Of a stretch of DNA of 51,749 nt, positions 12,506 to 38,842 are shown piece by piece. The notes under the pieces are model-generated. The model made no database searches, was not told the origin of the DNA, and saw only the letters and a list, made by a program, of their open reading frames with translations. The DNA is taken from the NCBI GenBank assembly GCA_028292245.1, contig JAQGMS010000104.1, positions 1-51,749 on the forward strand, in the 5' to 3' direction. Each line of letters starts with the position of its first letter. The first letter of the stretch is position 1. Source of the DNA: Ramlibacter sp. (GTDB taxonomy: Bacteria; Pseudomonadota; Gammaproteobacteria; Burkholderiales; Burkholderiaceae_C). The translations under genes and the position numbers were made by a program.

Positions 12506-12683
12506 TGCTATTCCCCTTCGTCGAGGATTGTGGAGTCAATCAGGCGGCTAAAGCATCCTCCATATTGAGGAGAGAACAACCGGAACTCCCGAATTTCCTT
12601 GCTCCGCCCGGACCCACGCCCTATGCTTGCACAAAAAAGAAATCCGTGAATTTGCAGATCACGTGAAAGTCAAGGAGGACCCC

Positions 12684-13709
12684 ATGAACATCCTGCCTAT
12701 ACGCTTGGCCTTGCGCGAGTGCAGGCGCTATCTGTGCTGTGCCCTCATAGCCGCGGGCATCAGCGATGTCGCCGCCCAGCCGACGCCAGTTGCCCCCACA
12801 CAGCTCAGACCCTTCGTATTCCGTCTTTCGGCGGACTTGCTGGACGATTCGCGCGTCCAGGTCACCAACGGCGTCGACGTTATCGCAAGCCATTGGCCGG
12901 CCCTCATCATCGCCTCCTATGAGCAGCAAACGGTCTTTGGGCGGCGCACCGGCACCTGCACAGCGTCGCTGCTCGGCCCCAACGTCGCGCTCATGGCGGC
13001 GCACTGTGTCGACGACCAGGGCGAATCGGGAGGAAAGCCCCTTACGCCGACGTTGCTAGTCGGCGACCGGGAAATGGCGTTCACATGCGAGATTCACCCT
13101 GACTACCTGAAGCGGCCCACGCGGTTCCGTTCCCCACGTGGCAGCGAAGACTACGCGCTATGCGTGCTCAACGACTCAGGCGTGCGTCCCGAATTGCTAA
13201 AGACGATGCGTTTCGAAGTACTCGATGCCGATGCACCGCTCAAGCACGGCGACTCGGTGCTGATGACGGGATATGGCTGCGCCGACCTTCACACCGTGGA
13301 TGGCGAGCCCGTCTATACCAAGGCGGACGGGCAACTGCGCCTGGGCGACGCGGCGATCGATTTGGCAACGGCCTCCGTGCCCGACGCCGCGACGTACGCC
13401 ACGATCCGATCACGGCAAGGCATGGAGCCCGCGCTATGTCCCGGGGATTCCGGCGGGCCCTTGCTAAGCGGAATCACGTCCAAGAATCCCGACAGGCTGC
13501 GCCGCGTGCGTGGCGTCAACTCCAGCGTTGCTACCGAACGCATCCCCGGCACCACACCCGCGCGCTACGATTTCGTGTCAAGCGTCGCCGCCACCGGGAC
13601 TAAGGTATTCAGGGACTGGGCGGAGGGTTGGCTGCGCCGCAACAGCGCGAGCAAGCCCGAACTTTGCGGACTCAACGTCAAGCCGGGAGATGGGTTATGC
13701 AGAAACTGA
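12684..13709 (+). CDS. Exported trypsin-like (S1) serine protease
   Basis: This 341-residue S1 peptidase has an intact triad: His107 in MAAHC, Asp156 in SEDYALCVL and Ser256 in PGDSGGPL. A signal peptide ends near AAQP (residue 32). Several cysteines (for example C92, C108, C135, C160) suggest disulfides and an exported location. ATG 12684 is chosen for its AAGGAGG Shine-Dalgarno; an upstream ATG at 12627 would add 19 charged residues and spoil the signal. Its stop lies 13 nt inside the next gene, a subtilisin-like protease, so the two are co-translated. The substrate is unknown. Confidence 0.87.
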   Translation: MNILPIRLALRECRRYLCCALIAAGISDVAAQPTPVAPTQLRPFVFRLSADLLDDSRVQVTNGVDVIASHWPALIIASYEQQTVFGRRTGTCTASLLGPNVALMAAHCVDDQGESGGKPLTPTLLVGDREMAFTCEIHPDYLKRPTRFRSPRGSEDYALCVLNDSGVRPELLKTMRFEVLDADAPLKHGDSVLMTGYGCADLHTVDGEPVYTKADGQLRLGDAAIDLATASVPDAATYATIRSRQGMEPALCPGDSGGPLLSGITSKNPDRLRRVRGVNSSVATERIPGTTPARYDFVSSVAATGTKVFRDWAEGWLRRNSASKPELCGLNVKPGDGLCRN

Positions 13710-15760
13710 CCAAACTGGCTTACGGATGCACCGCACTTGCCGCGGCATCGGCTTTAGCGCAGCCCGTGGATTCCAACAAGGTCGTTACGCTCCGCGCCGT
13801 CGGTCCGCACCTCAACGACCTGGTCATCCGGCACGTCGCCAAGAACGCGGAGCCGGTGGTGTTGGGTCATGCCCAATTCCCTGACGCTCGAGCCACGACA
13901 CCGCGGCAGATCGTTACAAAGCTATGTGGTGACGTTCGGGCCGCGTACATCGACGAAGCGGCGCGCGCCAACGGGCTCAAGAGCCTTGCGCTGGACGAGC
14001 CGCTCGGCAGCGCGGCCAGTACCTTTTCCTGGCCCGCGTGCCTGTTCGTGAGCCCCACGCCGCGCGACAAGAGCGTTGTCGTCAAGGCCGGGGACAAGGC
14101 TATCGAAATCTACCAGGCCTATACAGGTGGGGGAGGCTCAAAGGAAGCGCTCGGCAAGTTCTTCGAAAAAACTCCGGCACAACTCGCCAACCTTAAGCCC
14201 GGAGAGACCCTTCGGATCGCGTCGGTGAGCTTTACCGTGCCTCTCGTTGCGCGCAGCGGAACGGGTGCCCAACTGGCCGAAGAAATTCGGCGGCTCGATC
14301 CCAAAGGGACGATGGTGCGCGAGGTGGCTAGCCAAGAAGGCGACATCGTGCTGGGGATGGCGGGCGCCGACGGCACCACTGCGGCCGGCCCGGATTGCCT
14401 TGGATCCGCTGGCTCGCCGTTCAACGTCGCCAGAACGGTCGAAGCCTACAACTTCGCGACGGAGGCGGCCAAGCGCAGCAATGTGCTCGTCACTGGCGGC
14501 CGTTCCGAGGTCGCGATCGTCGACAACGGCTTCTTCGGGGCGAAGACCCAGCCCGATGGCTCCGACGCATTCGCCGGCAGCCCTTTTACCGCGCGCTTCT
14601 TCAAGCCAGACCCGAACTACACGATATCCGCTGCGATCATGATGGGCACGGCAGTCATGCCCTTGAACTATTCGAACAGCTTGCTGCCCGATCTGCAAAG
14701 CGGTCATGGCACGCACGTTGCCGGCCTGGTTCTCGGGGGCCCCGATTTCGTGACGCAACGCGAAACGCTGACGCCGACACCCTGGGTCTCGCTGACGATC
14801 CTTAACGTCGGGCGTGGCGCCAAGACCTTGCTCAAGGGCGCACCCGGCCTCCTGGCTTCGCGCCTCACGGCGGATGGCGGCTCGCGCATCGTGAACCTTT
14901 CAATCGCCCACGATGGGCGCGCGGACTTAGAGGTGGGCAATACCTACGAGACGCTGTTCGACTCCGCGCTGCGCAACACCCTGTTTGTGGTGGCCGCGGG
15001 GAACTACGGCCGCGACGTCGGCGACCAGGGCATCTATCCCGCTGCCTATGGAGGCCTCGCCAAGGCCAACGTCATCACGGTCGCGGCGCTGGACGTAGCA
15101 GGAAAGCTCGCGAGTTTCAGCAACAGAAGCGAAAAGCTCGTCGACCTGGGCGCACCCGGTTGTCAGATCCGCTCCTGGATCGACAAGGACCGGCCCCCGG
15201 TGGCAATGAGCGGAACCTCGCAGGCAGCACCCCTTGTAACGTTTGCCGCGGCCTTGCTGCGATCCATCGCCTCCTCTGCGCGACCCGCAGCCCTGAAGAA
15301 TCGCATCATCGTCAGCGGCGACCTGCTGGACGAGAGCGAGCGCGGGAGCACGGCCTTCGAGGTCAAGTTGAACATTCCGCAGGCGCTGATGTGGTTCGAT
15401 GACTACCTGAAAGTCAAGGACAGCACTCAAGAGCTCGAATATCTCGGGTCGATCCGCAGCTTGACCACCCTTCGCTGCCAGGAGAAGAGCGGCGCGAACG
15501 AAAAGAATCAGTCCGATATGTGGGCGCTCAAGCGCAGCGACGCTGGTATCTCGTACTTCTATCCTGGCTTTTTCTCCAGGCGCGCGTTGAGCCCGTGCCG
15601 GGTCGTGGAGGACGACGCCATCACGCTGTCTTTCGTGGCGACGCACCAGGTGGCGAGCAATGGCAAGGTCGAACGCTTGCCGCAAGAAATCAACCAGCGT
15701 TGGACACTCAAGCAGATCCAGAACTTGGTTGCCAGGACACCACTTTCAGAATTGCGTTGA
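13697..15760 (+). CDS. Exported subtilisin-like (S8) protease with LysM-like domain
   Basis: This 687-residue protein has a signal peptide (about 1-22). A LysM-like stretch near residues 127-175 (VVKAGDKAIEIYQ...LKPGETLRI) may bind peptidoglycan. A peptidase S8 domain runs from about 268 to 560 with Asp276 (AIVDNGF), His337 (GHGTHVAG), oxyanion Asn436 (AAGN) and Ser508 (MSGTSQAAP), all intact. A C-terminal ~130-residue domain is unrecognised. The ATG at 13697 has GGGAGA upstream and overlaps the trypsin-like gene. It may process or be processed by the neighbouring protease; that is inference. Confidence 0.86.
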   Translation: MQKLTKLAYGCTALAAASALAQPVDSNKVVTLRAVGPHLNDLVIRHVAKNAEPVVLGHAQFPDARATTPRQIVTKLCGDVRAAYIDEAARANGLKSLALDEPLGSAASTFSWPACLFVSPTPRDKSVVVKAGDKAIEIYQAYTGGGGSKEALGKFFEKTPAQLANLKPGETLRIASVSFTVPLVARSGTGAQLAEEIRRLDPKGTMVREVASQEGDIVLGMAGADGTTAAGPDCLGSAGSPFNVARTVEAYNFATEAAKRSNVLVTGGRSEVAIVDNGFFGAKTQPDGSDAFAGSPFTARFFKPDPNYTISAAIMMGTAVMPLNYSNSLLPDLQSGHGTHVAGLVLGGPDFVTQRETLTPTPWVSLTILNVGRGAKTLLKGAPGLLASRLTADGGSRIVNLSIAHDGRADLEVGNTYETLFDSALRNTLFVVAAGNYGRDVGDQGIYPAAYGGLAKANVITVAALDVAGKLASFSNRSEKLVDLGAPGCQIRSWIDKDRPPVAMSGTSQAAPLVTFAAALLRSIASSARPAALKNRIIVSGDLLDESERGSTAFEVKLNIPQALMWFDDYLKVKDSTQELEYLGSIRSLTTLRCQEKSGANEKNQSDMWALKRSDAGISYFYPGFFSRRALSPCRVVEDDAITLSFVATHQVASNGKVERLPQEINQRWTLKQIQNLVARTPLSELR

Positions 15761-25378: not shown

Positions 25379-26950
25379 CTAGGGGCAGCTCGTCACCGAC
25401 CAATAAGACGGGGTCCACTCCGGCGGGCTGTTCACGTTCCAGACCGAATTGGACTTTGCGGTCGCGGTGTAGAGCGTGCCATTGCGCAGCACCCGGTCAC
25501 CGGACATGTAGCGGGTGGTGGTGTTCCACGCGGGCGCGCTGCACGCGGGAGCCGGAGCCGGCGCCGGGGACGGCGCAGGCGTGGGTGCCGGTGCGGGCGC
25601 GGGAGCCGGCGCCGGTGCCGGCGCGCCGCAGCTCGTCACCGACCAATAGCTCGGTGTCCACTCCGGCGGGCTGTTCACGTTCCATGCGGATGCCGATGCG
25701 TCGGTCGCCACGTACATGGTGCCATTGCGCATCACGGTGTCGCGCGGCATGTAGCGCGTGGTCGTATTCCACGCAGGCGGGTTGCAACTGGGCGCGGGGG
25801 CCGGTGCGCTCGCCGCACCCGTCGTGTACAAGAGCCCGGCCGACTGCGTGTCGAAGCCGCCCGCTGCGACGGCCGCGCGGTCGGCAGCGGCGGACATCGT
25901 GACCGCTCGCCAGTTGGTGTCGGTGCCGGGCATGGCCTGCGCGGTGAAGCTTGCGCCTCCGTTGGTGGACAGCAGCACGCGCCCGGCCGTGGAGCCGGTG
26001 TTGGAAACCGTGGCGCCGATGGTCTGCCCGTCGCCGGACATGGCCAGGAAGGTGTAGTCGGCGACCAGGCTGTAGCCCTTGGTCCAACTGCCGCCGCTGT
26101 CGTGGGAGACATAGATACCGGTCCCCGGTCCGCCGCCGAAGCTGTTGGCCACCACGGCGATCGTTGCGCCGTCCGCCGAGACCTTCACGCGGTACCAGTG
26201 CTCGGCCACAGCGGCCGCGGGCGAGCCCACCAAAACGGTGACGGCCTTCCAGGTGGCGCCAGTGTCACGCGACAGGTAGATCTCGCCGTTGTGCGAGACG
26301 GCCACCAGGACGCGCCCGTCCGCCGAACTGTCGAGCCAGCGCCACCACCGCTCCTGCGGCGCGTCGGGCAGCGTGGCCGCGTGCCAGGTGGCACCGGCGT
26401 CATTGCTGAGGACGATGCGCCCGTTCTGGATGGCGGCTGCGACGTGTTGCCCGTCCTGCGACACGCTCACCGCCTCGAATGCGATGCCGTTGGGGTCGTA
26501 GACCAGCGGGCTGCTGGTCACCTGCAGCCAGGTGCGGCCGCGGTCGGTGCTGGTGTACATGCCGACGCCGTACTGCACCGCGAAGATGCGGTCGCCCGTG
26601 GCCGACATCGCGCTGGAAATCCAGGTGCCCGACGGGCTGTTGCCCGCGGTCCAGGATGCGCCGCCGTCGGCCGAAACGTAGATCGCGCCACCCGCCGTCC
26701 CCGCTGCCAGGACGTCGCCGGCCGCGCTGGACGAAAGCGAATGCCAGATCTGCGGCGTCGAATACGCCACGCTCCAGGACGGCGCCGAAGTCGCTGCCCG
26801 CAGCGGCACGGCAGCGCTCATCGGCGCGCCCAATGGCGTCGGCGCATCGGTCGGCACCCCGCCGTCCCCACCGCCACCGCAAGCGCTCAGCCATAAGGCC
26901 GCGAGGGCGACGCTGGTGAGCCGAAGGCGGGGGTGGGACAGCTGCTGCAT
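25379..26950 (-). CDS. BNR-propeller lipoprotein with two C-terminal CBM5/12-like modules
   Basis: This 523-residue protein has a lipoprotein signal ending LSAC (Cys24) followed by a Gly-rich tether. Residues about 55-365 form a propeller of BNR/Asp-box repeats (SADGGASWT, STDRGRTWL, SNDAGATWH, SRDTGATWK, SHDSGGSWT, STNGGASFT). Two nearly identical 53-residue modules (389-441 and 470-522, W..TTRYM..D.V.RNG..Y.A) resemble CBM5/12 chitin-binding modules and are joined by an Ala-Pro linker. It is likely surface-anchored and polysaccharide-binding. The ATG at 26950 begins the signal; upstream open frame is a shadow. The Shine-Dalgarno is poor. Confidence 0.8.
   Translation of the reverse strand: MQQLSHPRLRLTSVALAALWLSACGGGGDGGVPTDAPTPLGAPMSAAVPLRAATSAPSWSVAYSTPQIWHSLSSSAAGDVLAAGTAGGAIYVSADGGASWTAGNSPSGTWISSAMSATGDRIFAVQYGVGMYTSTDRGRTWLQVTSSPLVYDPNGIAFEAVSVSQDGQHVAAAIQNGRIVLSNDAGATWHAATLPDAPQERWWRWLDSSADGRVLVAVSHNGEIYLSRDTGATWKAVTVLVGSPAAAVAEHWYRVKVSADGATIAVVANSFGGGPGTGIYVSHDSGGSWTKGYSLVADYTFLAMSGDGQTIGATVSNTGSTAGRVLLSTNGGASFTAQAMPGTDTNWRAVTMSAAADRAAVAAGGFDTQSAGLLYTTGAASAPAPAPSCNPPAWNTTTRYMPRDTVMRNGTMYVATDASASAWNVNSPPEWTPSYWSVTSCGAPAPAPAPAPAPAPTPAPSPAPAPAPACSAPAWNTTTRYMSGDRVLRNGTLYTATAKSNSVWNVNSPPEWTPSYWSVTSCP
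25385..25543. repeat. 159-bp direct repeat, copy A (carbohydrate-binding module)
   Basis: This 159-nt unit encodes the C-terminal 53-residue CBM5/12-like module and recurs in the same orientation at 25628-25786. Most bases are shared, with blocks of perfect identity at both ends, pointing to a recent internal duplication. Confidence 0.8.
25628..25786. repeat. 159-bp direct repeat, copy B (carbohydrate-binding module)
   Basis: This is the second copy of the module-coding unit at 25385-25543, separated from it by an 84-nt GC-rich linker coding for Ala-Pro repeats. Its encoded module differs from copy A mainly in the central loop (DASASA instead of AKSNSV). Confidence 0.8.
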
Positions 26951-27119
26951 TGCAGGGATTCTGTTTGCATGCTTGTGGTCGCCCGCGTAAGCAAACGCCG
27001 CAAACGCCCGCCTGCCTTTTCGCACACGAATCGTCACAGTGGAACACTTGCAGCGGCGCCAAGCGTGCCCATCTTTGCCGCAGGTGCCTGTGGAGGCGCC
27101 ATCACGACAAGGCCCTGCC

Positions 27120-27395
27120 ATGTGGAAACGCCTGCCCCTGCTCTGGACCGTGCTGCGCGGTGACGCGCGGCAACTGTGGTTTGCGCTGCGCCACCCGGCC
27201 GCACCGGGCTGGCTGAAGTGGGGCACCTTGCTGATCGTGCTGTACGTGGTCTCGCCGATCGACCTGATCCCGGACTTCATCCCCTTCGTCGGCTTCCTCG
27301 ACGACATCGTGCTGGTGCCGCTGGCCGTCCGCTGGCTGCTCAAGCGCCTGCCGCCGGAGATTGCGCAGGCGGCGGCGAGCCGGCGCGCCAGCTAG
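27120..27395 (+). CDS. YkvA-like DUF1232 membrane protein
   Basis: This small 91-residue protein carries the DUF1232 core: WLKWGTLLIVLYVVSPIDLIPDFIP followed by VGFLDDIVLVPLAVRWLL, that is, two hydrophobic segments with the conserved SPIDLIPD turn. Its function is unknown. I chose ATG 27120 as the family-typical start; a frame upstream to 27039 is open but adds unlike sequence. It is divergent from the propeller lipoprotein gene. Confidence 0.85.
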   Translation: MWKRLPLLWTVLRGDARQLWFALRHPAAPGWLKWGTLLIVLYVVSPIDLIPDFIPFVGFLDDIVLVPLAVRWLLKRLPPEIAQAAASRRAS

Positions 27396-28623: not shown

Positions 28624-30990
28624 CTATTGATACGCAAGACCGTGCGCAGCCAACCCAACCAAGTCGATGTGGGCGAGATTGAACGAGGTATCTGCCGCCA
28701 TCCTGGCCAAGGCGGCTTGCGTGTACGCGCCGCTGTCGAGGAGGCCCTTGTAATAGGCCAGGTCGCCGGCCGGCGGCGCCGAGCCCACCACGTTGGTGTA
28801 CAGCGTCGTCACCAACGTTGCGTTTGCAATATTCGCTCCCAGGCGGGCCTGCAGCGCAAGTTGCATGAGATCGTCCTGCCCCATCCCCGCGTCGATCAGC
28901 GACAAGCCGATGCCCACGTACGCCGCGTTGCCGACCGAAGCCGCGCCGAACACCGCGCCCAGGTACCGGGCCACCGTGCCCGCATGGCCGTCCAGGTCGA
29001 GCGCGAGCTTGGTGTCGGCGAATTGGAGCCGCTCGATTGCCGAGAGATGGTCCGTGTTGAAGGCGCCGTTGCCCACGGTCCAGCCGTCGGCGACGTGGCT
29101 CACGCTGGCCTGCGCCATCGGCGTGGCATAGACGACCTTGTCGACGCCGGCGGACCCGGCGATATGGTCGGCACGCGGTCCGGCATGGAACACCAGGCCG
29201 GTGGCGTTGCCCGTGAAGATGTCGTTGCTGTAGACCGTCAGGCTTGAATCGGTGGCCCCCACGAGTTCGGGGATTCCATCGCCATCCACATCCATGGCGT
29301 GCATGCTCGTATAGCCGGCGAAGGTGCGGGCCACCGTGAAATGGCCGGCGCCGTCGTTGAGCAGCAGGTCGGCGCTGTGCGTCGAGCCATCCGTCACCGC
29401 GAGGATGTCGTCGGCGCCGTCGCCGTTGAAATCCACCACTTCCACGAACTTGTACCAGTAGCCTGCGTGGTCGGCCGGGTCTTGCGCGAACCGCGGCTGC
29501 GTCTCGTCGGAAAAATTCCCGCCGCCATGATTGACCAGGAACTGAAGGTACGGCACTTGATAGAACTGCGAACGTTCACCGCCGTTGGTTGCGGACACAA
29601 CGAGGTCGCGCAGCCCGTCGCCGTTCAGGTCGATGCCGGTGATCGCCACGATGTTCTCACTCGAAACGCCGGTCAAGGGAAGCGCGTGGACGCCGCTGGC
29701 GGGGAACACCCCGGGCGCCGACGCCAGCAACAGTTGCGAAGGCGTGCCCGTCCGGCCCTCCCAGGTGCCGAGCACTATATCGGCGCGGCCATCCGCATTC
29801 AGGTCGCCGATGTACGACCAGGTGTTGCCGGGGGTATATGTGCCCACAACCTGCACGGACGCCGGGAACAAGGCGGAGTTCGTCGTGAATCCACCGGCGC
29901 CGTTGCTGAAGATCACCTGGTTGGCCTTGCCGCCGGGATCGTTCAAGCCATCCACCAGCACATCGGGTGAGCCGTTGCCGTCGATGTCGCCGATCGAAAG
30001 GCCATGGCCCTGCGTCAGCCGCTGCTCCAATTGCGCGCTTTGGTCGGTGAGCTTGCCGCCCGCGGAGACGAAAAGCCGGTTCTGCCCCCCATTGAAAGGA
30101 GGCTTGTCCGCGCCGAAATCCGGCACGAACACGTCGGTGATGCCGTCGCCGTTGAAATCGGCCCCGCCGACGCGCGCCGCGTAGTTGACGCTGGGGATCG
30201 CGCCCGCGAAAACGGAAGCGGTGCCGTCGGTGAACCCGCCGTGGCCGTCGCCCAGCACGATCTGCACCGGGCTGGCGACTTCCCCGGTGGACGGGCCGTC
30301 GATGCGGTTGACCCACAGGTCGCCAAAGCCGTCGCCATTGAAATCGCCTTCCAGCAGTTGCTGCACCCCGTTGCCGCCGGGAATGGCGACTGTCTGGTGG
30401 GAGCGGAACGGGCCGGTGAAATCCGCCACGCCCAGTGTCTCGACGATGTTGTCCGCTCCCCAGAACCGGAGCGTCTCCACATGTGCCAGCACGTCCGTGC
30501 CCGTGACGCCGTTGGCGAAGTGCTTGACCACCGTGAACGCGGCGGTTGCAGGGTCGTAGCTGACCGTCGCCTGGGAACTGCTTGCGCCGTAATAAATGAC
30601 GGTGTCACTGCCGCCGCCCAGGTCCATCGCGTTGCTGCTGGGGCCGGTCGGCCAGACGGAGTCATTGGCCGCCGAGCCGGTGATGCTGTTGTTGCCCGGC
30701 CCGAGTTGGAGGACATGGATGTTGACGAGCGTGTCGACCGTACCCCAACCGTCCTGCACCTGGCCGGTGACGAGGTTCACCACGATGGGCGAAGGCGAAT
30801 CCCAATACACGGCGGAGGACCAGGGGCTGGTGCCGATCAGCGTGTCGTTGCCCTGCTGGCCGAGCGCGTTGCCTACGGCGATGGTGATCGCGTCGTTGCC
30901 GGCGCCGCCATAGATGTTTGTGCCGTCCGCCAAACCCAGCGACGACTGGTTGATCACATCGTCGCCTGGCGTTCCGTTGTAGTTGCTCAT
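28624..30990 (-). CDS. RTX-like/FG-GAP repeat protein with C-terminal DUF4214
   Basis: This 788-residue protein is probably secreted by type I export, since it has no N-terminal signal. RTX-type nonapeptides are seen near residues 28-52 (GGAGNDAIT, GQQGNDTLI). The middle holds at least seven VCBS/FG-GAP calcium-loop repeats such as DFNGDGITD, DIDGNGSPD, DLNADGRAD, DLNGDGLRD and DVDGDGIPE, indicating an integrin-alpha-like propeller. The C-terminal ~100 residues resemble DUF4214 (LVTTLYTNVVGSAPPAGDLAYY). No exporter genes lie beside it. It may be an adhesin or S-layer-like matrix protein. Confidence 0.78.
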   Translation of the reverse strand: MSNYNGTPGDDVINQSSLGLADGTNIYGGAGNDAITIAVGNALGQQGNDTLIGTSPWSSAVYWDSPSPIVVNLVTGQVQDGWGTVDTLVNIHVLQLGPGNNSITGSAANDSVWPTGPSSNAMDLGGGSDTVIYYGASSSQATVSYDPATAAFTVVKHFANGVTGTDVLAHVETLRFWGADNIVETLGVADFTGPFRSHQTVAIPGGNGVQQLLEGDFNGDGFGDLWVNRIDGPSTGEVASPVQIVLGDGHGGFTDGTASVFAGAIPSVNYAARVGGADFNGDGITDVFVPDFGADKPPFNGGQNRLFVSAGGKLTDQSAQLEQRLTQGHGLSIGDIDGNGSPDVLVDGLNDPGGKANQVIFSNGAGGFTTNSALFPASVQVVGTYTPGNTWSYIGDLNADGRADIVLGTWEGRTGTPSQLLLASAPGVFPASGVHALPLTGVSSENIVAITGIDLNGDGLRDLVVSATNGGERSQFYQVPYLQFLVNHGGGNFSDETQPRFAQDPADHAGYWYKFVEVVDFNGDGADDILAVTDGSTHSADLLLNDGAGHFTVARTFAGYTSMHAMDVDGDGIPELVGATDSSLTVYSNDIFTGNATGLVFHAGPRADHIAGSAGVDKVVYATPMAQASVSHVADGWTVGNGAFNTDHLSAIERLQFADTKLALDLDGHAGTVARYLGAVFGAASVGNAAYVGIGLSLIDAGMGQDDLMQLALQARLGANIANATLVTTLYTNVVGSAPPAGDLAYYKGLLDSGAYTQAALARMAADTSFNLAHIDLVGLAAHGLAYQ

Positions 30991-31110
30991 GGCTGTACTC
31001 CGCCGTAATCCGGTGCGGTCATGATACGTCGGGACGCGGTAAACGCGAACCTAGACTGAGGACGCTACGCCCGGTAGGATGCGCCAAGGTATTACGTCAG
31101 GCGAAAACCC

Positions 31111-31458
31111 ATGTCGGATTTGAAGTCCCTTACCCAGAAGATCGTGCAGTTCCGTGACGAAAGGGACTGGGCGCAGTTTCACAACCCCAAGGACGTGGCG
31201 CTTTCACTGATGCTGGAGGCCGCCGAGGTTCTCGAGGTGTTCCAGTGGAAGGAAGGCCAAGCCATAGCGGCGACCGCCGGGCAACGGCAAGGCGATCTCG
31301 CCGACGAACTGGCGGACGTCCTGTACTACACGCTCCTGATGGCGCACGACCTCAAGATCGACCTGGTGCCTGCGCTCGAAGCCAAACTTCTGCGAAATGC
31401 GGAGAAATACCCTGTCGACAAGGCCAAGGGCTCCAACAAGAAGTACACGGAGCTGTAG
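31111..31458 (+). CDS. MazG-like nucleotide pyrophosphohydrolase
   Basis: This 115-residue, all-alpha NTP pyrophosphohydrolase of the MazG/dCTPP1-like type has metal-binding ExxE at E36/E39 (LEAAEVLEVFQW) and ExxD at E66/D69 (DELADVLYY). It would hydrolyse (d)NTPs, often non-canonical, to the monophosphate and PPi. Its stop lies 3 nt before the GTG of the helicase-S24 gene, so the two form a unit. In that setting it may deplete or sanitise nucleotides during phage or DNA-damage stress; that is inference from context. Confidence 0.88.
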   Translation: MSDLKSLTQKIVQFRDERDWAQFHNPKDVALSLMLEAAEVLEVFQWKEGQAIAATAGQRQGDLADELADVLYYTLLMAHDLKIDLVPALEAKLLRNAEKYPVDKAKGSNKKYTEL

Positions 31459-31461
31459 GCT

Positions 31462-33888
31462 GTGATCATTTACCAAGCCGAGAAGAAGCAGTTTCTCGAC
31501 GACGTATTCAAGAACGACATCGAAGCGGTCGTTCTCGACTCCTTCAAGAAGCGCACCGGACACACAGTCTCCAAGGAGGAGATGCGCGCCTGGACGTCAT
31601 CGCTCGGATACATGGGCAAGGTTCTCAACGACGACGGTGTTCCGGACGACTGCGGCGTCGCCATTGAATACACGATCCCCCAAACGTCGAAGCGTGTCGA
31701 TTTCCTGTTGACCGGGAAAAGTGCGGGCGACCAATCGTGCGTAATCATCGTGGAGCTCAAGCAGTGGGAACATGCGACGAAAACCGAGAAGGACGCGATT
31801 GTCTCGACGCGGTTTTCGCGTGGAGAGGCAGAAGTTAGCCACCCGTCGTACCAGGCGTGGTCATATGCCGCTCTCTTGCAAGGCTTCAATGAAGCGGTCT
31901 ACGACGGTGGCATCGAGCTGAAGCCCTGCGCGTACCTGCATAACTATCCCCTCCCCGGGGGTGACATCAACGATCCGTTCTATGCCGATCACATAAAGCG
32001 GGCGCCGGTGTTTCTGAAGGGCGATTCTGAGCGCACACGACTGCGCGAATTCATTCAGCGGCACGTCCGCTTCGGAGACAAGGGCGAGGCACTGTATCGG
32101 ATGGAGAAGGGACGAATCCGCCCATCCAAGAGCCTTGCCGACGGCTTGGCTGGAATGCTCAAGGGCAACAGCGAATTCGTGCTCGTTGATGACCAGAAGC
32201 TTGTCTACGAAACCGCATTGCAGCAGGCCAGGCAGGTCCAGGAGAAAGGCAAACGCGTCCTGATCGTCGAAGGTGGACCCGGGACGGGTAAGTCGGTCGT
32301 TGCGATCAACCTGCTCGTGGGCCTGACCGAAGCCGGGCTCGTTGCCAAGTACGTGACCAAGAATGCAGCCCCTCGCGCCGTCTACGAAGCGCGGCTTGTC
32401 GGCACCTTCAAGAAAACCCACATCTCCAATCTGTTTACCGGGTCTGGCGCTTTCACGTCCGCTGCCGAGAACGAGTTCGACGCATTGGTGGTCGATGAGG
32501 CGCACCGCCTCAACGAAAAGTCCGGCCTGTATGCCAACCTTGGCGACAACCAGATCAAGGAGTTGATCCAGGCGTCCCGCTTTTCGGTTTTTTTCATCGA
32601 CGAATCGCAGAAGGTGACGCTGAAGGACATTGGCGACAAGGAAACGATCAAGCGCTGGGCAAAGCACTTCGGGGCAAAGGTCAGCCAGATGGACCTGGCT
32701 TCGCAATTCCGTTGCAACGGCTCTGATGGCTATCTCGCCTGGCTCGATCACAACCTGCAAGTGCGGGAGACAGCGAATGAACTGCTGGACGTGGCCGAAT
32801 TCGACTTCAGGATCGTCGATTCGCCCGTGCAGTTGCGCGACCTCATCGTCGACAAGAACAAGGAGCGCAACCGTGCAAGGATGGTTGCCGGTTATTGCTG
32901 GAGCTGGCCGAGCAAGAAGGACCGCAAGGCCTTCGACATCGTCATCCCCGAACACGACTTCAAAGCCCGCTGGAACCTGACGCAGGACGGCGGCCTTTGG
33001 ATTGTTTCACCCGACTCGGTCAATGAAATTGGCTGCATCCACACGTGCCAAGGGCTGGAGGTCGACTACATCGGCGTCATCATTGGCGATGACTTGATCG
33101 TCAGGGATGGGAAAGTCGTCGTGCGACCGGACAGGCGCGCGAGCTCCGACAAATCCATTCACGGATTGAAGCAGCTCACGAAAGAAAATCCCGCAGAGGC
33201 CGCCCGTCAGGCCGACGCCATCATCAAGAACACCTACCGGACCCTGATGACGCGCGGCATGAAGGGCTGCTACGTGTACTTCACGGACGAAGAGACGGCT
33301 GACTACTATCGTTCGCGCCTGAGGGGTTGGCGCCCAACGGTCATTGAGACGCAAAGGCCGTCCGTTGCTTCTCGCCTTCAAGAACTCGTGGATCCTCGCC
33401 CGTTTCGCGTGATCCCGAACGCCACAGTCATACCGTATCGAAACGCCGTACCTGTCATTCCGCTCAAGATGGCGGCTGGCACATTCTCCGGGGCGCAGAT
33501 TTTGGATCCCGAAGCTGTTGAATGGGCAGTTCCTGAAGGAATTTCAATTGGCCCAGACATGTTCATTGCCCAGGTCGTTGGTGAATCGATGAACCGGCGG
33601 ATACCGAACGGCGCCTGGTGCCTGTTCCGTGGAAACCCGGTAGGCACACGCCAAGGCAAGGTCGTGCTCGCGCAACATCGTGATATAGCCGATCCGGAGA
33701 CTGGCGGCACTTTCACCGTCAAGATTTATTCGAGCGAAAAGGCAGGAGACGGTCACAAAAGCTGGGCGCACACCCACATTACCCTGTCTCCCAGTTCGAG
33801 CGACGCAGCGTTTCAGCCCATCGTGCTTCAGGCGCAAAGTGCGACTGAAGTGACCGTGTTGGCCGAACTGATAGCAGTTTTGGCTTGA
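31462..33888 (+). CDS. Nuclease-DUF2075 helicase fused to a LexA/UmuD-like S24 peptidase domain
   Basis: This 808-residue fusion starts with a PD-(D/E)XK-like segment (E69, D80 in KRVDFLL, E98-x-K100 in IVELKQW). A DUF2075/Schlafen-group superfamily-1 helicase follows, with Walker A GGPGTGKS (271-278), Walker B LVVDEAH and late motif TCQGLEVDYIGV. The C-terminal ~130 residues resemble S24 self-cleaving peptidases: Ser709 in VVGESMNRRIPNG, Lys754 in FTVKIYS, and an upstream MAAG whose Ala672-Gly673 lies 37 residues before the Ser, like LexA's cleavage site. The start is GTG, with GGAG overlapping the end of the MazG-like gene. A defence or damage-response role is inferred. Confidence 0.8.
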   Translation: MIIYQAEKKQFLDDVFKNDIEAVVLDSFKKRTGHTVSKEEMRAWTSSLGYMGKVLNDDGVPDDCGVAIEYTIPQTSKRVDFLLTGKSAGDQSCVIIVELKQWEHATKTEKDAIVSTRFSRGEAEVSHPSYQAWSYAALLQGFNEAVYDGGIELKPCAYLHNYPLPGGDINDPFYADHIKRAPVFLKGDSERTRLREFIQRHVRFGDKGEALYRMEKGRIRPSKSLADGLAGMLKGNSEFVLVDDQKLVYETALQQARQVQEKGKRVLIVEGGPGTGKSVVAINLLVGLTEAGLVAKYVTKNAAPRAVYEARLVGTFKKTHISNLFTGSGAFTSAAENEFDALVVDEAHRLNEKSGLYANLGDNQIKELIQASRFSVFFIDESQKVTLKDIGDKETIKRWAKHFGAKVSQMDLASQFRCNGSDGYLAWLDHNLQVRETANELLDVAEFDFRIVDSPVQLRDLIVDKNKERNRARMVAGYCWSWPSKKDRKAFDIVIPEHDFKARWNLTQDGGLWIVSPDSVNEIGCIHTCQGLEVDYIGVIIGDDLIVRDGKVVVRPDRRASSDKSIHGLKQLTKENPAEAARQADAIIKNTYRTLMTRGMKGCYVYFTDEETADYYRSRLRGWRPTVIETQRPSVASRLQELVDPRPFRVIPNATVIPYRNAVPVIPLKMAAGTFSGAQILDPEAVEWAVPEGISIGPDMFIAQVVGESMNRRIPNGAWCLFRGNPVGTRQGKVVLAQHRDIADPETGGTFTVKIYSSEKAGDGHKSWAHTHITLSPSSSDAAFQPIVLQAQSATEVTVLAELIAVLA

Positions 33889-33908
33889 GCCCTCCTCAGA
33901 ATGCCGCG

Positions 33909-35999
33909 TCAATCGCTGACGATCCTTTGAACAACTTCATTCATGCCTTCTGGTCGGTAATTGGCATCTCGCATGCGTGTCAAAAGTAGGTTGCGAAACA
34001 CTTCGTAGCTGACTGACTTTGCGCGCGTACCGGCGAACCGTTTAAGTATGTCTCTTCCTCTGAAAACCCGTACCCATGTACCATCGGCCAAGCTTTCTTG
34101 GTATCGCGCCATAAGCCTTTCCTCTTCGGTAACCAAACTTTCGAGCTTGAGCCGTTTCTCGTTTGTGTCGTTGATGCGCAAAACAGATCTCTGTATTGCC
34201 TCATACAGTTCAGTAGTCAAGTCCGAGCTTGCCGGGTCTGTCTTCATGTTGATCGACGACATGATGGCAGCATTAGCGTACTCCGCCAGATCGTGCCGGA
34301 TTAGTTGTGGAAGCGTGTCAACTGCGCATTGTCGCAAGTCATCCCACACGGCGGCTTCACTGGGAAACTTGGTCTCATTTAATGAGGACAACACCTGCAA
34401 GATAAATTGCGGAGCTAAGAAGTAGTTTTCAATGTGATAGGCATCCCACATAAAGTTATTCACGGGAGATGTTTGTTGGGTGCTTTGACCATCCCTGTCC
34501 GTTATTGCATAGAACTTAAACGGCAGGAGGCCTTTTTTGGAGGCGTTGTCCAGAGTCTCGTGCAGAGCTCGAACGCGAACCTTGTTACTGCCAGAGATCA
34601 AATTCGCCTGCTGTTGGAGCTCCGGAAATAGCGTTCCGGTCACTCTTTGATCAAAATCCGAGTCGCCTCCACCTTCGAAAATCACAACCTTCCCGCCCGG
34701 TCTGTAAGCGGCAAGATCGCCCACGAGATCAACTAGCGCCAGTTCCAAATCAGCCGTAGCTGATAGTGGTTTTAGTTGACTCTCGCCCTTGGGCACGCTG
34801 CCCGATGGAAACATATGGAAGACGTTGTAGTTTTCACGCCCAACTACCTCGCGCAACAAAGCGTCCGAATGAGTCACCAGCCAAATCTGATTCCCAAGAA
34901 TTTCGCCGAGGTTCTTTCTATAGAACTGGGGCAATCCCCGTATCAGTCGAGGATTCAAGTGCAATTCAGGTTCGTCAAGAAGGATAATTGAATTGTGGGG
35001 CGCCGAATTTCTAATTCGAAGATACCCATACAAAATCTCCTTTTCGCCCGCACTCAATTCGTCCAAGTCATGCACGCTTCCAGAAGCGGTCCGCACGGGA
35101 AAGCTCAAACTTCCGTCGGGCCGTGGACGCGGGCCTAAGAATTCCTTTTCCGGGAAGAATGTGGCGAATAACTCCTTAAGAGTATTTGACAGTGTTGCCT
35201 TGGAGGTCTGGGCCACGCCTGCTTGTTCGGCAAGCAGCTCTTTGATGAACGACGAGGCCATCTCACTTTTGACGTTATTGTATTTAGCGGCAGAGTTATA
35301 GAGAGCAGTTTGAGTTCTGATTTTTTCCGTTGCATCTAAGTTGAGATTGATGCCCTGCACCGACTCTCGCCCATAGTGACGCTGTGCCCCGTGATAGTCA
35401 ATTACGCCCACGTACTCGGGACGGAAAGTGCAAAAGATCACAGACAGCGCAAGGGAGTTGTTTATTGTTGGCGTTCCTCCCAGGGGAATAAAGAAATGTC
35501 CGGGAAGCGTCTGTGCAGCCAACTCCGCCATCAGTGCCGGGTACTCTTCGGTCGCGCGCTTAGCGACTTCGGGTCCGCGTTCTCTGAATTGAGCAGCAAA
35601 TGATGCCATTCTGAAACCGCCCCATTCATAGGCCTCAGGGAGAATCGTCCGCCAGATCTTTTCCTGCAAGAGCTCAATCGCGTTAGCTTGCAGATAAGTT
35701 CTCTCTGCTGGCGCAAGTCTGAAATTGCAGGAAATTGTCAATGGCTTGGTTGGATCGTTGAGCAACGGAGTGAAATCGCTTGCACGATTTGATATCGGAA
35801 TCTGAAATTCGCCCATCCATTGCTGCCACTCATTTGCTTGATAGCCACCGTACACTGATTTCAAGAGACGAATTGCATCGAAGATGCATGACTTACCCGA
35901 TCCATTCTGGCCCGCGATGATTACCATCCCACCTAAGTTGTTGAGGACAACCTCCTTGATGCCGCGAAAGTTGCTTACTACTAGCGAGTCGATTTGCAT
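33909..35999 (-). CDS. AAA ATPase fused to DUF4435 TOPRIM-like domain (merged PARIS/OLD-like)
   Basis: This 696-residue protein has an ABC-like AAA domain: Walker A GQNGSGKS (30-37), LSAGEK signature (315-320), Walker B IILLDEPELHL and switch THSDALL. From about residue 435 a DUF4435 TOPRIM-like domain follows, with VIFEGGGDSDF (acidic E442), ITDRDG (D501, D503) and DAYHIENYFL. In the PARIS anti-phage system AriA (AAA) and AriB (DUF4435) are separate or fused; this matches a fused form, although a class of OLD nuclease is an alternative. Its composition is near 50% GC by eye, far below its neighbours, a sign of transfer. It faces the helicase-S24 gene, 20 nt apart. Confidence 0.8.
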   Translation of the reverse strand: MQIDSLVVSNFRGIKEVVLNNLGGMVIIAGQNGSGKSCIFDAIRLLKSVYGGYQANEWQQWMGEFQIPISNRASDFTPLLNDPTKPLTISCNFRLAPAERTYLQANAIELLQEKIWRTILPEAYEWGGFRMASFAAQFRERGPEVAKRATEEYPALMAELAAQTLPGHFFIPLGGTPTINNSLALSVIFCTFRPEYVGVIDYHGAQRHYGRESVQGINLNLDATEKIRTQTALYNSAAKYNNVKSEMASSFIKELLAEQAGVAQTSKATLSNTLKELFATFFPEKEFLGPRPRPDGSLSFPVRTASGSVHDLDELSAGEKEILYGYLRIRNSAPHNSIILLDEPELHLNPRLIRGLPQFYRKNLGEILGNQIWLVTHSDALLREVVGRENYNVFHMFPSGSVPKGESQLKPLSATADLELALVDLVGDLAAYRPGGKVVIFEGGGDSDFDQRVTGTLFPELQQQANLISGSNKVRVRALHETLDNASKKGLLPFKFYAITDRDGQSTQQTSPVNNFMWDAYHIENYFLAPQFILQVLSSLNETKFPSEAAVWDDLRQCAVDTLPQLIRHDLAEYANAAIMSSINMKTDPASSDLTTELYEAIQRSVLRINDTNEKRLKLESLVTEEERLMARYQESLADGTWVRVFRGRDILKRFAGTRAKSVSYEVFRNLLLTRMRDANYRPEGMNEVVQRIVSD

Positions 36000-36095
36000 G
36001 GGCTATCCAATGTGCCTGCTACGGCATTCCTCGGTCCAAGTGACGCGAGGGGGTATAGATACAAAGCCCAGATAGTACGCCGTTGTTACGAGCTG

Positions 36096-36120
36096 TCGTC
36101 CTCAAGTCTGTGGAGGACGA
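36096..36120. promoter_or_regulatory. Hairpin between the Bug operon end and the AAA gene
   Basis: TCGTCCTC (36096-36103) and GAGGACGA (36113-36120) form a perfect 8-bp stem with a 9-nt loop. It lies downstream of the leftward Bug operon and upstream of the leftward AAA gene. No T-run follows on either strand, so it may be a rho-aided end or an operator rather than an intrinsic terminator. Confidence 0.35.
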
Positions 36121-36154: not shown

Positions 36155-37114
36155 TCATTCCCCCGTAATCCCATTCCTCCGAATCAACTCCCCATACTTC
36201 GCCAACTGCGCCTTAGTCGCCACCCCCAGCTCCTCCGGCGTCGTCCCCTTCGGCGTCAGCCCCTGCGCATTCAACTTCTCCTTCACCTCCGGGTCGTCCA
36301 GCGCCTTCTTCACTTCTGCGGCCAATTGATTCACGATGGCCTTGGGCGTGCCGGCCGGCGCCATCAGCGCGAACCATGAATTGAATTCGAAGCCGGGCAT
36401 GCCCGTGTCGCTGACCGTGGGCACGTCGGGGAACTGCGGCATGCGCCTGGGCGTGGTGACGCCGACCAGGCGCACCTTGCCGGCCTTGATCAGCGAATTG
36501 ACGGACGAGATGCCCATGAACGCCGTGTCCACTTCGTGGCCGGCCACGCCCATCGCCGCCTGTGTCGCGCCCTTGTACGGCACGTGCGTCATCTGCACGC
36601 CGGCTTGCGATGCAAACAGCGCCATCGCGATGTGCTGCGGGCTGCCGTTGCCGCCCGAGCTGTAGTTGATCTTGCCGGGCGCCTTCTTGGCTTCGGCGAT
36701 CAGGTCGGCCGCGCTTTTCATCGGTGCCTCGGCGTTGACCACCAGGCCCCACTCCACCGTGGCCACCAGCGACACCGGCTCGAAGTCCTTGACGATGTCC
36801 CACGGCATCTTGGCTTGCATGTTGGGCACCATGGTCATGATGCTGTCGTTGAAGCCGCCCAGGGTGTAGCCGTCGGGTTGCGCCTTGGCTACCGCGCCGG
36901 CGCCGATCAGGCCGGCCGCGCCGGGCTGGTTCTCGATGACGATGCCCTGGCCCATGTTGCGGGACATCTTTTCCGCGACGATGCGGGCGGCGTTGTCGAC
37001 CGCGCTGCCGGCGGCGAGGGGGACGATGATCTTGATGGGTTTGCTGGGGTAGGTTTGGGCGTGGGCCATGCCGGTGGTGAGCAAGGCCGAGAAAAGGATC
37101 GCTGCGTACTTCAT
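36155..37114 (-). CDS. Bug/TctC-family tripartite tricarboxylate receptor
   Basis: This 319-residue periplasmic binding protein has a signal peptide ending AHAQ. Bug-family marks are YPSKPIKIIVPLAAGSAVDN, VIENQPGAAGLIGAG, INYSSGGNGSPQH, HVPYKGATQA and a FVPDVPTVS-like PDVPTVSDTGMPGF. Its ATG overlaps the stop of the Ldh2-type dehydrogenase (ATGA), so it is the last gene of a racemase-like/Ldh2/Bug operon and probably captures that pathway's organic acid. Confidence 0.92.
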   Translation of the reverse strand: MKYAAILFSALLTTGMAHAQTYPSKPIKIIVPLAAGSAVDNAARIVAEKMSRNMGQGIVIENQPGAAGLIGAGAVAKAQPDGYTLGGFNDSIMTMVPNMQAKMPWDIVKDFEPVSLVATVEWGLVVNAEAPMKSAADLIAEAKKAPGKINYSSGGNGSPQHIAMALFASQAGVQMTHVPYKGATQAAMGVAGHEVDTAFMGISSVNSLIKAGKVRLVGVTTPRRMPQFPDVPTVSDTGMPGFEFNSWFALMAPAGTPKAIVNQLAAEVKKALDDPEVKEKLNAQGLTPKGTTPEELGVATKAQLAKYGELIRRNGITGE

Positions 37115-38172
37115 GTTGTCTCCTGGATGCGGGGGATGCCTAAATCTTTGGCGACGGTGTCTAACTGCGCCAGCAGCGCCGGCGACATCGCCAGCCCATC
37201 GCGCTCGTTCGCGATGCGCTTGGCGTGGCTTTGCTCGCCGGGCAGCCAGATGCGGTCCACGCCGGGCATGCGTTCGCTGGCGCGCAGCTCGCGGATCAAT
37301 TTGTCCACGCGGGCCTTGAATTCGTCGATGTCGCCGAACGCGTCGGGGTCGATCACGACGATGGCCTGGCCGGTGTTGGTCACCGACACGTCGTCCTTGT
37401 TGAAGTCGATGGTCTCGCTGCCCATCGCGGCGCCGTTCAGCGTGCCAGCCAGGATGCCGACGACCAGCGCCAGCCCGTAGCCCTTGTAGCCGCCGATGGG
37501 CATCAAGAAGCCCTCTTCCGCGTGCTTGGGGTCAGTCAGCGGCTTGCCTTGCCGGTCGATCATCCAGCCCTCGGGCATCTGCTCACCGCGCTGCGCCTTG
37601 GCCTTCACCTTGCCGTAGGCGGCGACGGTGGTCGCCATGTCCAGCACGATGGCCGGCTCCTCGCCCGCAGGCACGGCCACAGCGATGGGGGTGGTGGAAA
37701 GCAGCATGTCCGGCCCGCCCCAGGGCGGCAGGTGGTTGGCGTTGCCCACCGCGTAGTACATGCCGATCATGTCTTGCGCCAGCGCCATGCGTGCGTACAG
37801 CGACGCCGGGCCCGCGTGGTTGGACAGGCGCGCGCCGACCCAGGCGATGCCGCATTGCCGCGCCTTCTCGATGGCGATCTGCGCGGCGCGCTGCATCACC
37901 AGGTGGCCCATGCCGTTGTCGCCATCCAGCAGCGCCATCGCGGCTTTCTCCTTGACCACGTGGATGTCGGGCTTGAGGTTGATGCCGCCGGCGCGGATGC
38001 GTCGCGCGTACGGCGCCAGGCGGATCGCGCCGTGGCCGTCGGAGCCTTGCACTTCGGCCTCGGTCATGAGGTCGGCCACGATGCCGGCGTCGGCTTCGGG
38101 CAGGCCGAGCTTGGACATCGCGGCGGCGATGAAGCCGCGCAGTTGCGCGGCGGGGATGCGGGTTTCAGGCAT
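37111..38172 (-). CDS. Ldh2-family malate/L-lactate/ureidoglycolate-type dehydrogenase
   Basis: This 353-residue NAD(P)-dependent oxidoreductase of the Ldh2/MdH family acts on 2-hydroxy acids. Characteristic segments are EVQGSDGHGAIRL, the RLSNHAGPASLYA region (catalytic-type His), MATTVAAYGKVK, and GYKGYGLALVVGILAGTLNG. The substrate in the family ranges from malate and sulfolactate to delta1-piperideine-2-carboxylate, so it cannot be assigned. It overlaps both neighbours (8 nt with the racemase-like gene, 4 nt with Bug), indicating strict co-translation. Confidence 0.9.
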   Translation of the reverse strand: MPETRIPAAQLRGFIAAAMSKLGLPEADAGIVADLMTEAEVQGSDGHGAIRLAPYARRIRAGGINLKPDIHVVKEKAAMALLDGDNGMGHLVMQRAAQIAIEKARQCGIAWVGARLSNHAGPASLYARMALAQDMIGMYYAVGNANHLPPWGGPDMLLSTTPIAVAVPAGEEPAIVLDMATTVAAYGKVKAKAQRGEQMPEGWMIDRQGKPLTDPKHAEEGFLMPIGGYKGYGLALVVGILAGTLNGAAMGSETIDFNKDDVSVTNTGQAIVVIDPDAFGDIDEFKARVDKLIRELRASERMPGVDRIWLPGEQSHAKRIANERDGLAMSPALLAQLDTVAKDLGIPRIQETT

Positions 38173-38842
38173 CGGCGGACATTGTTTGCTTCAGGGCCAG
38201 CACCGCGCAATCGGGGCTGCTGAGGACTGGACACTTTAGTTCTTTCCGCACGGCCGGTTGGGCGGCCGTCATCGAAAACTGCGCGAGCATCACCGCGTCG
38301 CAATCGGCGAGTTGGCGCGACGCTTGCGCGATCTTGCGGTGGTGGTCTTCGGCGCGGCCTTGGGCCAGGTCGTCCATGGCTTCGGAGACGAACACCGTGC
38401 GCAGGTCGATCGCGACGCCCTGCTCCTGCGCCATCACCTGCAGCTCTTCGCTCATGGACCCGATGGAGGCCAGGAAGGTGGCGACGAGGCCGAGCTTCAA
38501 CGCCCTGCCTTGAGTGGCCAGCGCAAGGGCCTGCTCGAACATCGCTTCGTTGGGCTTGAGCGTCGGCACGCCGCTGGCATTGGCGGCCGCCTCGATGGCC
38601 GGGCCGAAGGCTGAGCAGGTGAAGAGGATGCCGGTGCAGCCGGCGCTGACGGCGTAGAGCGCCAGGTCGACGAAGCGCAAGGTCATCTCGTCGGTTAGCT
38701 TGCCGTCGCGGGCGCGGTCGGCCGAGAGGCTGTCGTCGAGCAGGTTCATGCGCTCGGCCTGCGGCCAGTGGCGCGCGAAGGCGGCGTTGATCGGCTCGAT
38801 CGCGAGCGGCGTGGCGTGGATCAGGGCGATGCGGGGAGGCAT
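38165..38842 (-). CDS. Aspartate/glutamate racemase-family protein
   Basis: This 225-residue cytosolic protein has the Asp/Glu racemase fold. The first catalytic-type cysteine is in GILFTCSAFGPAIEA; the second half carries VMLAQFSMT and VLSSPDCAVLAL, where Cys occurs close to the usual position. The family includes racemases, maleate isomerases, hydantoin racemases and arylmalonate decarboxylases. Being first in an operon with an Ldh2 dehydrogenase and a Bug receptor, it may isomerise a hydroxy or amino acid before oxidation (inference). Confidence 0.8.
   Translation of the reverse strand: MPPRIALIHATPLAIEPINAAFARHWPQAERMNLLDDSLSADRARDGKLTDEMTLRFVDLALYAVSAGCTGILFTCSAFGPAIEAAANASGVPTLKPNEAMFEQALALATQGRALKLGLVATFLASIGSMSEELQVMAQEQGVAIDLRTVFVSEAMDDLAQGRAEDHHRKIAQASRQLADCDAVMLAQFSMTAAQPAVRKELKCPVLSSPDCAVLALKQTMSADA

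Follow-up and report, generated by a model that had tools for sequence, protein, structure and literature searches.

A predicted nuclease-helicase family with a LexA-like S24 domain and a conserved candidate self-cleavage site

Introduction

The cargo of the S24 self-cleavers known to us is either a DNA-binding domain or an accessory arm for a polymerase. In a 51,749-nucleotide stretch of a Ramlibacter sp. genome (GenBank assembly GCA_028292245.1, contig JAQGMS010000104.1, positions 1 to 51,749; hereafter the window), a switch of this type is predicted on a nuclease-helicase, encoded beside a MazG-like gene on an island that looks mobile. What would a LexA-type domain do at the end of such a protein? 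An earlier note, made from the sequence alone, had suggested that autocleavage after DNA damage or phage entry releases the helicase-nuclease. On balance we lean toward a reading of this kind, in which the nuclease-helicase would be controlled by self-cleavage after Ala672 and freed once RecA has assembled into filaments on single-stranded DNA (ssDNA). If this is true, an SOS signal would control a defense-like effector directly at the protein level.

The S24-fused nuclease-helicase family itself is real and is visible in databases through its Pfam domains. No description of such a fusion or of its self-cleavage was found in the literature searched, which was covered by titles and the beginnings of abstracts, with preprints covered within PubMed Central. 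The five papers found to mention DUF2075, the helicase family concerned, likewise included none on an S24 fusion by title or abstract start.

Domain organization of the nuclease-helicase-S24 protein

The gene encodes an 808 amino acid (aa) protein, whose parts are as follows.

31462..33888, + strand: whole nuclease-helicase-S24 gene, 808 aa, GTG start
31462..32106, + strand: predicted PD-(D/E)XK/RecB-like nuclease segment, from residue 1 to around residue 215 with an approximate boundary, from invariant motif residues
31699..31761, + strand: nuclease motif D80 ... E98-x-K100, invariant in 86/86 aligned proteins
32251..33288, + strand: SLFN-g3 (DUF2075) superfamily-1 helicase domain, residues 264-609, PF09848
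33328..33390, + strand: probable flexible linker of low confidence, residues 623-643, with a predicted local distance difference test score (pLDDT) <50; S24-less relatives stop near residue 620
33451..33885, + strand: S24 (LexA/UmuD-type) domain, residues 664-808, from sequence and predicted fold
33475..33480, + strand: predicted self-cleavage site Ala672-Gly673, from conservation and alignment with the LexA Ala-Gly
33586..33588, + strand: predicted nucleophile Ser709 (GESM), kept in 236/237
33721..33723, + strand: predicted general base Lys754, kept in 237/237

The C-terminal domain is S24/LexA-like, as judged from its sequence and predicted fold. A profile of the domain matched LexA in the PDB (E = 2e-10) and UmuD (E = 1e-6), and the first 22 PDB matches of the predicted fold were all LexA, lambda CI, or UmuD. 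Peptidase_S24 (PF00717) was matched by 40/40 aligned members of the family at E ≤ 0.01. For the window protein, the C-terminal 169 aa scanned alone gave PF00717 at 25.5 bits (E = 1.1e-5), above the cut-off, while the Pfam scan of the whole protein gave 21.3 bits (E = 2.3e-4), just below the cut-off of 23.3 bits. The latter score could suggest that the S24 part is a product of chance or of annotation, such as a fused pseudogene, an explanation to which we give next to no weight: it is refuted by the open frame, the match to LexA, the fold match, and the presence of the domain in 240 of 337 relatives. These relatives comprised loci together with the best 120 of the approximately 8000 candidates that each of two protein searches gave.

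The central region matched PF09848 over residues 264-609 in the whole-protein Pfam scan (E = 6e-105, 351.8 bits versus a cut-off of 24); SLFN-g3_helicase is the present Pfam name of this family, once DUF2075. Its Walker residues G274-T-G-K277 and D345-E346 were invariant in 86/86 aligned proteins, as were D80, E98, K100, Q131, and Y135 in the N-terminal segment. D ... ExK plus QxxxY is the pattern of RecB-like PD-(D/E)XK nucleases, and by this motif the N-terminal segment is predicted to be one. The earlier note had thus described the protein correctly in joining a nuclease segment, a DUF2075 helicase, and an S24-like C-terminus within one open reading frame.

Fold searches with the full-length model were filled by helicases. 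Human SLFN11 occupied the first Foldseek row (7zel, E = 4e-11), and UvrD came first in VIA-align, with Schlafens after it. Human SLFN11 and SLFN14 differ from the family in their nuclease domain and are not known to carry an S24 domain. A whole-protein sequence search of the PDB gave nothing at E ≤ 1, and the profile of the whole alignment gave just weak P-loop matches (E 0.005-0.06). The PADLOC models Nhi, AbiO, and PDC-S41 matched partially, within the helicase part only (38.6-59.1 bits).

The putative catalytic dyad and cut site are conserved

Self-cleavage by S24 proteins depends on an Ala-Gly bond, or Cys-Gly in UmuD, together with a Ser-Lys dyad, as described in PMC8565304. All of these features were found in the window protein family, which combines PF00717 sequence and fold with a Ser-Lys dyad and an Ala-Gly or Cys-Gly bond; the predicted cut site at 672/673 aligns with the Ala-Gly of LexA. 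Residue positions were checked across the listed proteins of at least 790 aa plus loci of at least 740 aa (n = 144).

Among the relatives with the domain, 237 had letters at both dyad columns; P0063, P0159, and P0232, which did not, were set aside, and L082, L083, L100, L102, and P0001 were excluded (L083 and P0001 are the window copy itself). The predicted Ser709 was kept in 236/237 and the predicted Lys754 in 237/237. Before the predicted cut (P1, residue 672) stood Ala in 142 and Cys in 95 of the 237, and nothing else, followed by Gly673 at P1' in 234. The same held in a non-redundant set with less than 80% identity (n = 152), where Ser, Lys, and P1 Ala/Cys were each present in all 152 sequences and Gly in 150. 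In that set, 11 of 168 S24 columns were at least 98% conserved, with G673, S709, and K754 all included (hypergeometric 2e-4), and column 672 was the sole one of the 168 to hold Ala or Cys exclusively. Ala672, Gly673, Ser709, and Lys754 are therefore present where the earlier note had placed them, and since dyad and (A/C)-G site are conserved, the family does not consist of homologs without a Ser/Lys pair or cleavage site, a finding that the note had named as speaking against its proposal.

This pattern bears on whether the domain cuts at all. It might instead be a non-cutting module for dimerization or for docking RecA, but docking needs no near-invariant Ser, Lys, and (Ala/Cys)-Gly bond, and we regard this explanation as very improbable. 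From sequence and structural model, it is very likely that the S24 domain cuts itself at 672/673.

Two S24 subtypes differ in the spacing of the dyad

In the window protein, 37 residues separate A672 from S709 and 45 separate S709 from K754. The earlier note had assumed an insertion between Ser and Lys, and this insertion proved to be real, 8 residues long and subtype-specific: compared to LexA, the surplus length forms a single gap of 8 columns. Type A, which includes the window protein and is found in Pseudomonadota, Bacteroidota, and others, accounts for 114/152 non-redundant sequences and has a Ser-Lys spacing of 45 in 109/114 (range 42-47). Type B, from Patescibacteria where the record was named, has a spacing of 37-38, as in LexA and UmuD, and Cys-Gly in 38/38. 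The spacing comparison excluded L082, L083 (window), L100, L102, L036, L097, and L098, which are fragments or have open or interrupted frames, and forms shorter than 740 aa. The type A insertion lies at approximately residues 736-750 of the window protein, in a stretch that often reads DPETGG, and perhaps marks a different trigger contact.

Because the insertion is absent from LexA and type B, the trigger could differ in type A. The S24 domain may self-cleave on a signal other than RecA, such as the helicase engaging phage DNA or turning over ATP, which would make the protein sensor and switch in one molecule. The presence of helicase and S24 domain in a single chain fits this explanation, and there is a precedent in IrvR, a LexA-like protein described as independent of RecA in PMC7101444. 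However, type B has plain LexA/UmuD spacing and S24 proteins generally use RecA, according to PMC8565304 and PMC13148647, and we consider a non-RecA signal improbable. By analogy, the likely trigger is activated RecA on ssDNA that damage or phage replication has produced. The host genome encodes RecA. It also encodes an S24 protein of the LexA type, in which the motifs RVAAG, GMSM, and TVKRF occur.

Mapped onto a helicase tree with 86 rows, the presence of S24 requires six changes (type A four, type B two), and on an S24 tree each type formed its own clade, with support of 100 and 99% in the Shimodaira-Hasegawa-like approximate likelihood ratio test (SH-aLRT). Both trees were quick, with SH-aLRT and no bootstrap, and some branches in the helicase tree are long. 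They suggest that two independent S24 fusions are possible; we do not claim this, because an approximately unbiased (AU) test did not reject a tree with every fused S24 domain in one clade (p = 0.498).

Relatives without S24 and the predicted effect of cleavage

In 46 of the 86 aligned proteins the S24 domain is absent. These relatives end near residue 620, have an otherwise similar body, and retain the invariant nuclease and helicase residues. A broad S24 profile, which recovers the host's own LexA-type gene, found no S24 gene beside the short forms (in 45/58 of these loci the downstream sequence extends 2 kb or more); its two matches there, at L028 and L076, were distant ones, 5-6 kb from the helicase gene. 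Since the short forms end near residue 620, the predicted product 1-672 corresponds to a natural short form plus a tail, and this resemblance is the main argument that cleavage would release a working enzyme. Because forms with and without S24 both occur naturally, what the switch would do can be tested directly.

In the mechanism that we favor, the uncut protein would be held back by S24 dimers on the flexible linker. RecA filaments on ssDNA, formed during damage or phage replication, would stimulate the cut at Ala672-Gly673, and the 672-residue product, equivalent to the natural form of approximately 620 residues with a short tail, would be the active enzyme. As part of this response, the MazG-like protein may work on nucleotides. 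Activation by release is our best single bet, and the sign of cleavage is the part of which we are least sure.

A serious rival, which we judge rather unlikely, reverses that sign and makes the domain a safety fuse. The uncut, S24-dimerized enzyme would be active, and RecA-stimulated self-cleavage would end its activity upon host DNA damage, either by loss of the dimer or by a C-terminal degron directed to ClpXP, like type I restriction alleviation. LexA's cut fragment ends in ...VAA and is degraded by ClpXP, and this reversed sign is argued for chiefly by the window product, which would end similarly, in ...KMAA. An AA end is predicted in 94/152 non-redundant relatives, and restriction alleviation by ClpXP provides a precedent, as described in PMC11109961. 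On the other hand, Cys precedes the cut in 57/152, including all 38 of type B, so a degron ending in AA is not what the family conserves. In addition, the S24-less relatives keep the invariant residues of both enzymatic parts, which argues that S24 dimers are not generally needed.

Several observations weigh against activation by RecA-stimulated release. Cleavage, RecA contact, and inhibition of the uncut form are each predictions, and the low-confidence linker (pLDDT <50) does not point to any fixed contact that would inhibit. The domain is retained in P0220, where Phe replaces the Ser, and in three relatives that have lost the P1' Gly, which is Ser in P0065 and P0217 and Thr in P0224. A scan for the E. 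coli-type pattern alone, with other motifs such as those of Bacteroidota not searched, detected no SOS box ahead of the window operon; any SOS link would thus be at the protein level. The other long-form loci gave a single weak E. coli-type match (L026). A role in defense is based on context, and the 82-protein control set for the neighborhood comparison below also contained restriction-type and other defense models.

More broadly, and as a tentative proposal only, the family may represent a LexA-style fuse built into an effector that destroys nucleic acids, in which ssDNA-RecA filaments would induce the self-cut that unleashes the nuclease-helicase. The SOS response would thereby have a post-translational arm, one operating without transcription, in two S24 subtypes across Pseudomonadota, Bacteroidota, and Patescibacteria. 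The four relatives with substitutions at Ser or Gly could be naturally occurring forms that do not cleave, or could reflect errors in sequencing.

Comparison with known systems

The family resembles LexA, lambda CI, and UmuD in its S24 fold, its Ser-Lys dyad, the Ala-Gly or Cys-Gly bond where the C-terminal S24 domain begins, and the N-terminal position of the cargo. It differs in the cargo itself, which is a DNA-binding domain or short arm in those proteins and a nuclease-helicase of approximately 620 residues here, and in the additional residues between Ser and Lys in type A. A Pfam scan at E ≤ 0.1 listed no helix-turn-helix in the 808 aa protein, so it may act partly like LexA but is not a LexA repressor. 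Two relatives, P0150 and P0155, are labeled 'SOS-response transcriptional repressor LexA' by one source, a misleading name that derives from the S24 domain. The S24-less SLFN-g3 (DUF2075) helicases have the same motifs in both enzymatic parts and, in most cases, the same MazG neighbor, but lack S24 and end at approximately residue 620.

Hachiman and AVAST systems include gated pairs of a pro-nuclease and a trypsin-like protease, as described in PMC12799240. They resemble the proposed switch in placing a defense nuclease under site-specific proteolysis, with the protease part fused onto unrelated systems. In those pairs, however, a metallo-beta-lactamase-like nuclease is cut by a partner protease, whereas the S24 domain would cut in cis. 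Neither a metallo-beta-lactamase nuclease nor a trypsin-like protease was among the Pfam matches of the helicase, MazG, and AriAB proteins, and a term search of the main text of PMC12799240 gave no S24, LexA, or DUF2075. Schlafen-family RNases in defense are discussed in PMC12839542, where S24, LexA, MazG, and DUF2075 gave no match in the part of the text covered.

Genomic setting and distribution

Two genes flank the helicase gene within the island.

31111..31458, + strand: MazG-like NTP pyrophosphohydrolase of the all-alpha type, 115 aa, conserved partner, PF12643
33909..35999, - strand: fused AriAB (PARIS) gene, 696 aa, a neighbor and not part of the helicase protein (PADLOC AriAB, E = 1.9e-201, residues 1-696)

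The MazG-like protein matched PF12643 at 65.7 bits (E = 4.5e-18; cut-off 27), and its E36/E39 and E66/D69 (ExxE/ExxD) were kept in 79-80 of 81. As its gene stops 3 nt upstream of the helicase gene, the unit is larger than the helicase reading frame. The earlier note's proposal had named neither this partner nor the S24-less relatives. A MazG gene adjoins the helicase gene in 80/98 loci (76 upstream, 4 downstream), with a median gap of 2 nt; 16 loci were without one and two were cut by contig ends. The neighbor occurs with S24-bearing and S24-less helicases alike.

The MazG-helicase pair lies within a 5-kb stretch of 50-58% guanine plus cytosine (GC), compared to 61-71% in 2-kb windows outside it, and the AriAB gene, convergent with the helicase gene and 20 bp away, belongs to the same low-GC island. 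The island spans approximately 31100-36100 of the window, with tctC and dehydrogenase-like genes on one side. Four same-genus genomes have this flank (36155-38842), the genes at 36155-38172 included. By tblastn, MazG, helicase, and AriAB had no match in the 18 kb taken from each of these genomes, and genes of the other flank had none in the four genomes at E ≤ 1e-20. The island is mobile-looking; as only one flank is common to the same-genus genomes, its exact insertion point is not defined.

Within the host family, 19/399 genomes (the host's own included) had a match to the helicase at E ≤ 1e-30, 13 of them full-length with S24. E. coli genomes searched by blastn gave no match to the helicase gene. 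Phage records gave four matches, none over 80% of the query, and the matches at four IMG/VR loci ended by residue 620. On plasmids, 41 records matched, and in three of them a single place spanned 80% or more of the query.

The genes surrounding the family's helicases suggest a defense neighborhood. In PADLOC, 107 and 112 helicase-neighbor proteins matched 111 and 126 families, versus 12 matched by 82 controls; these are counts of models, many of them redundant, rather than of proteins, and gene calls in high-GC DNA are crude. The neighbors were 219 of 291 listed, chosen by hand, with the omissions being mostly short proteins plus six entire loci (L009, L036, L041, L064, L066, and L079).

Other genes in the window

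Ten window genes outside the island had no PADLOC match at E ≤ 1e-15. Just outside the island, 28627-30990 (- strand) encodes an FG-GAP repeat protein with a DUF4214 domain. A BNR/sortilin-like propeller protein is encoded at 25382-27343 (- strand), and its C-terminal CBM5/12-like module scored under the curated cut-off. Further away, adjacent trypsin-like and subtilase-like proteins are encoded at 12627-15757 (+ strand), in called frames that overlap slightly.
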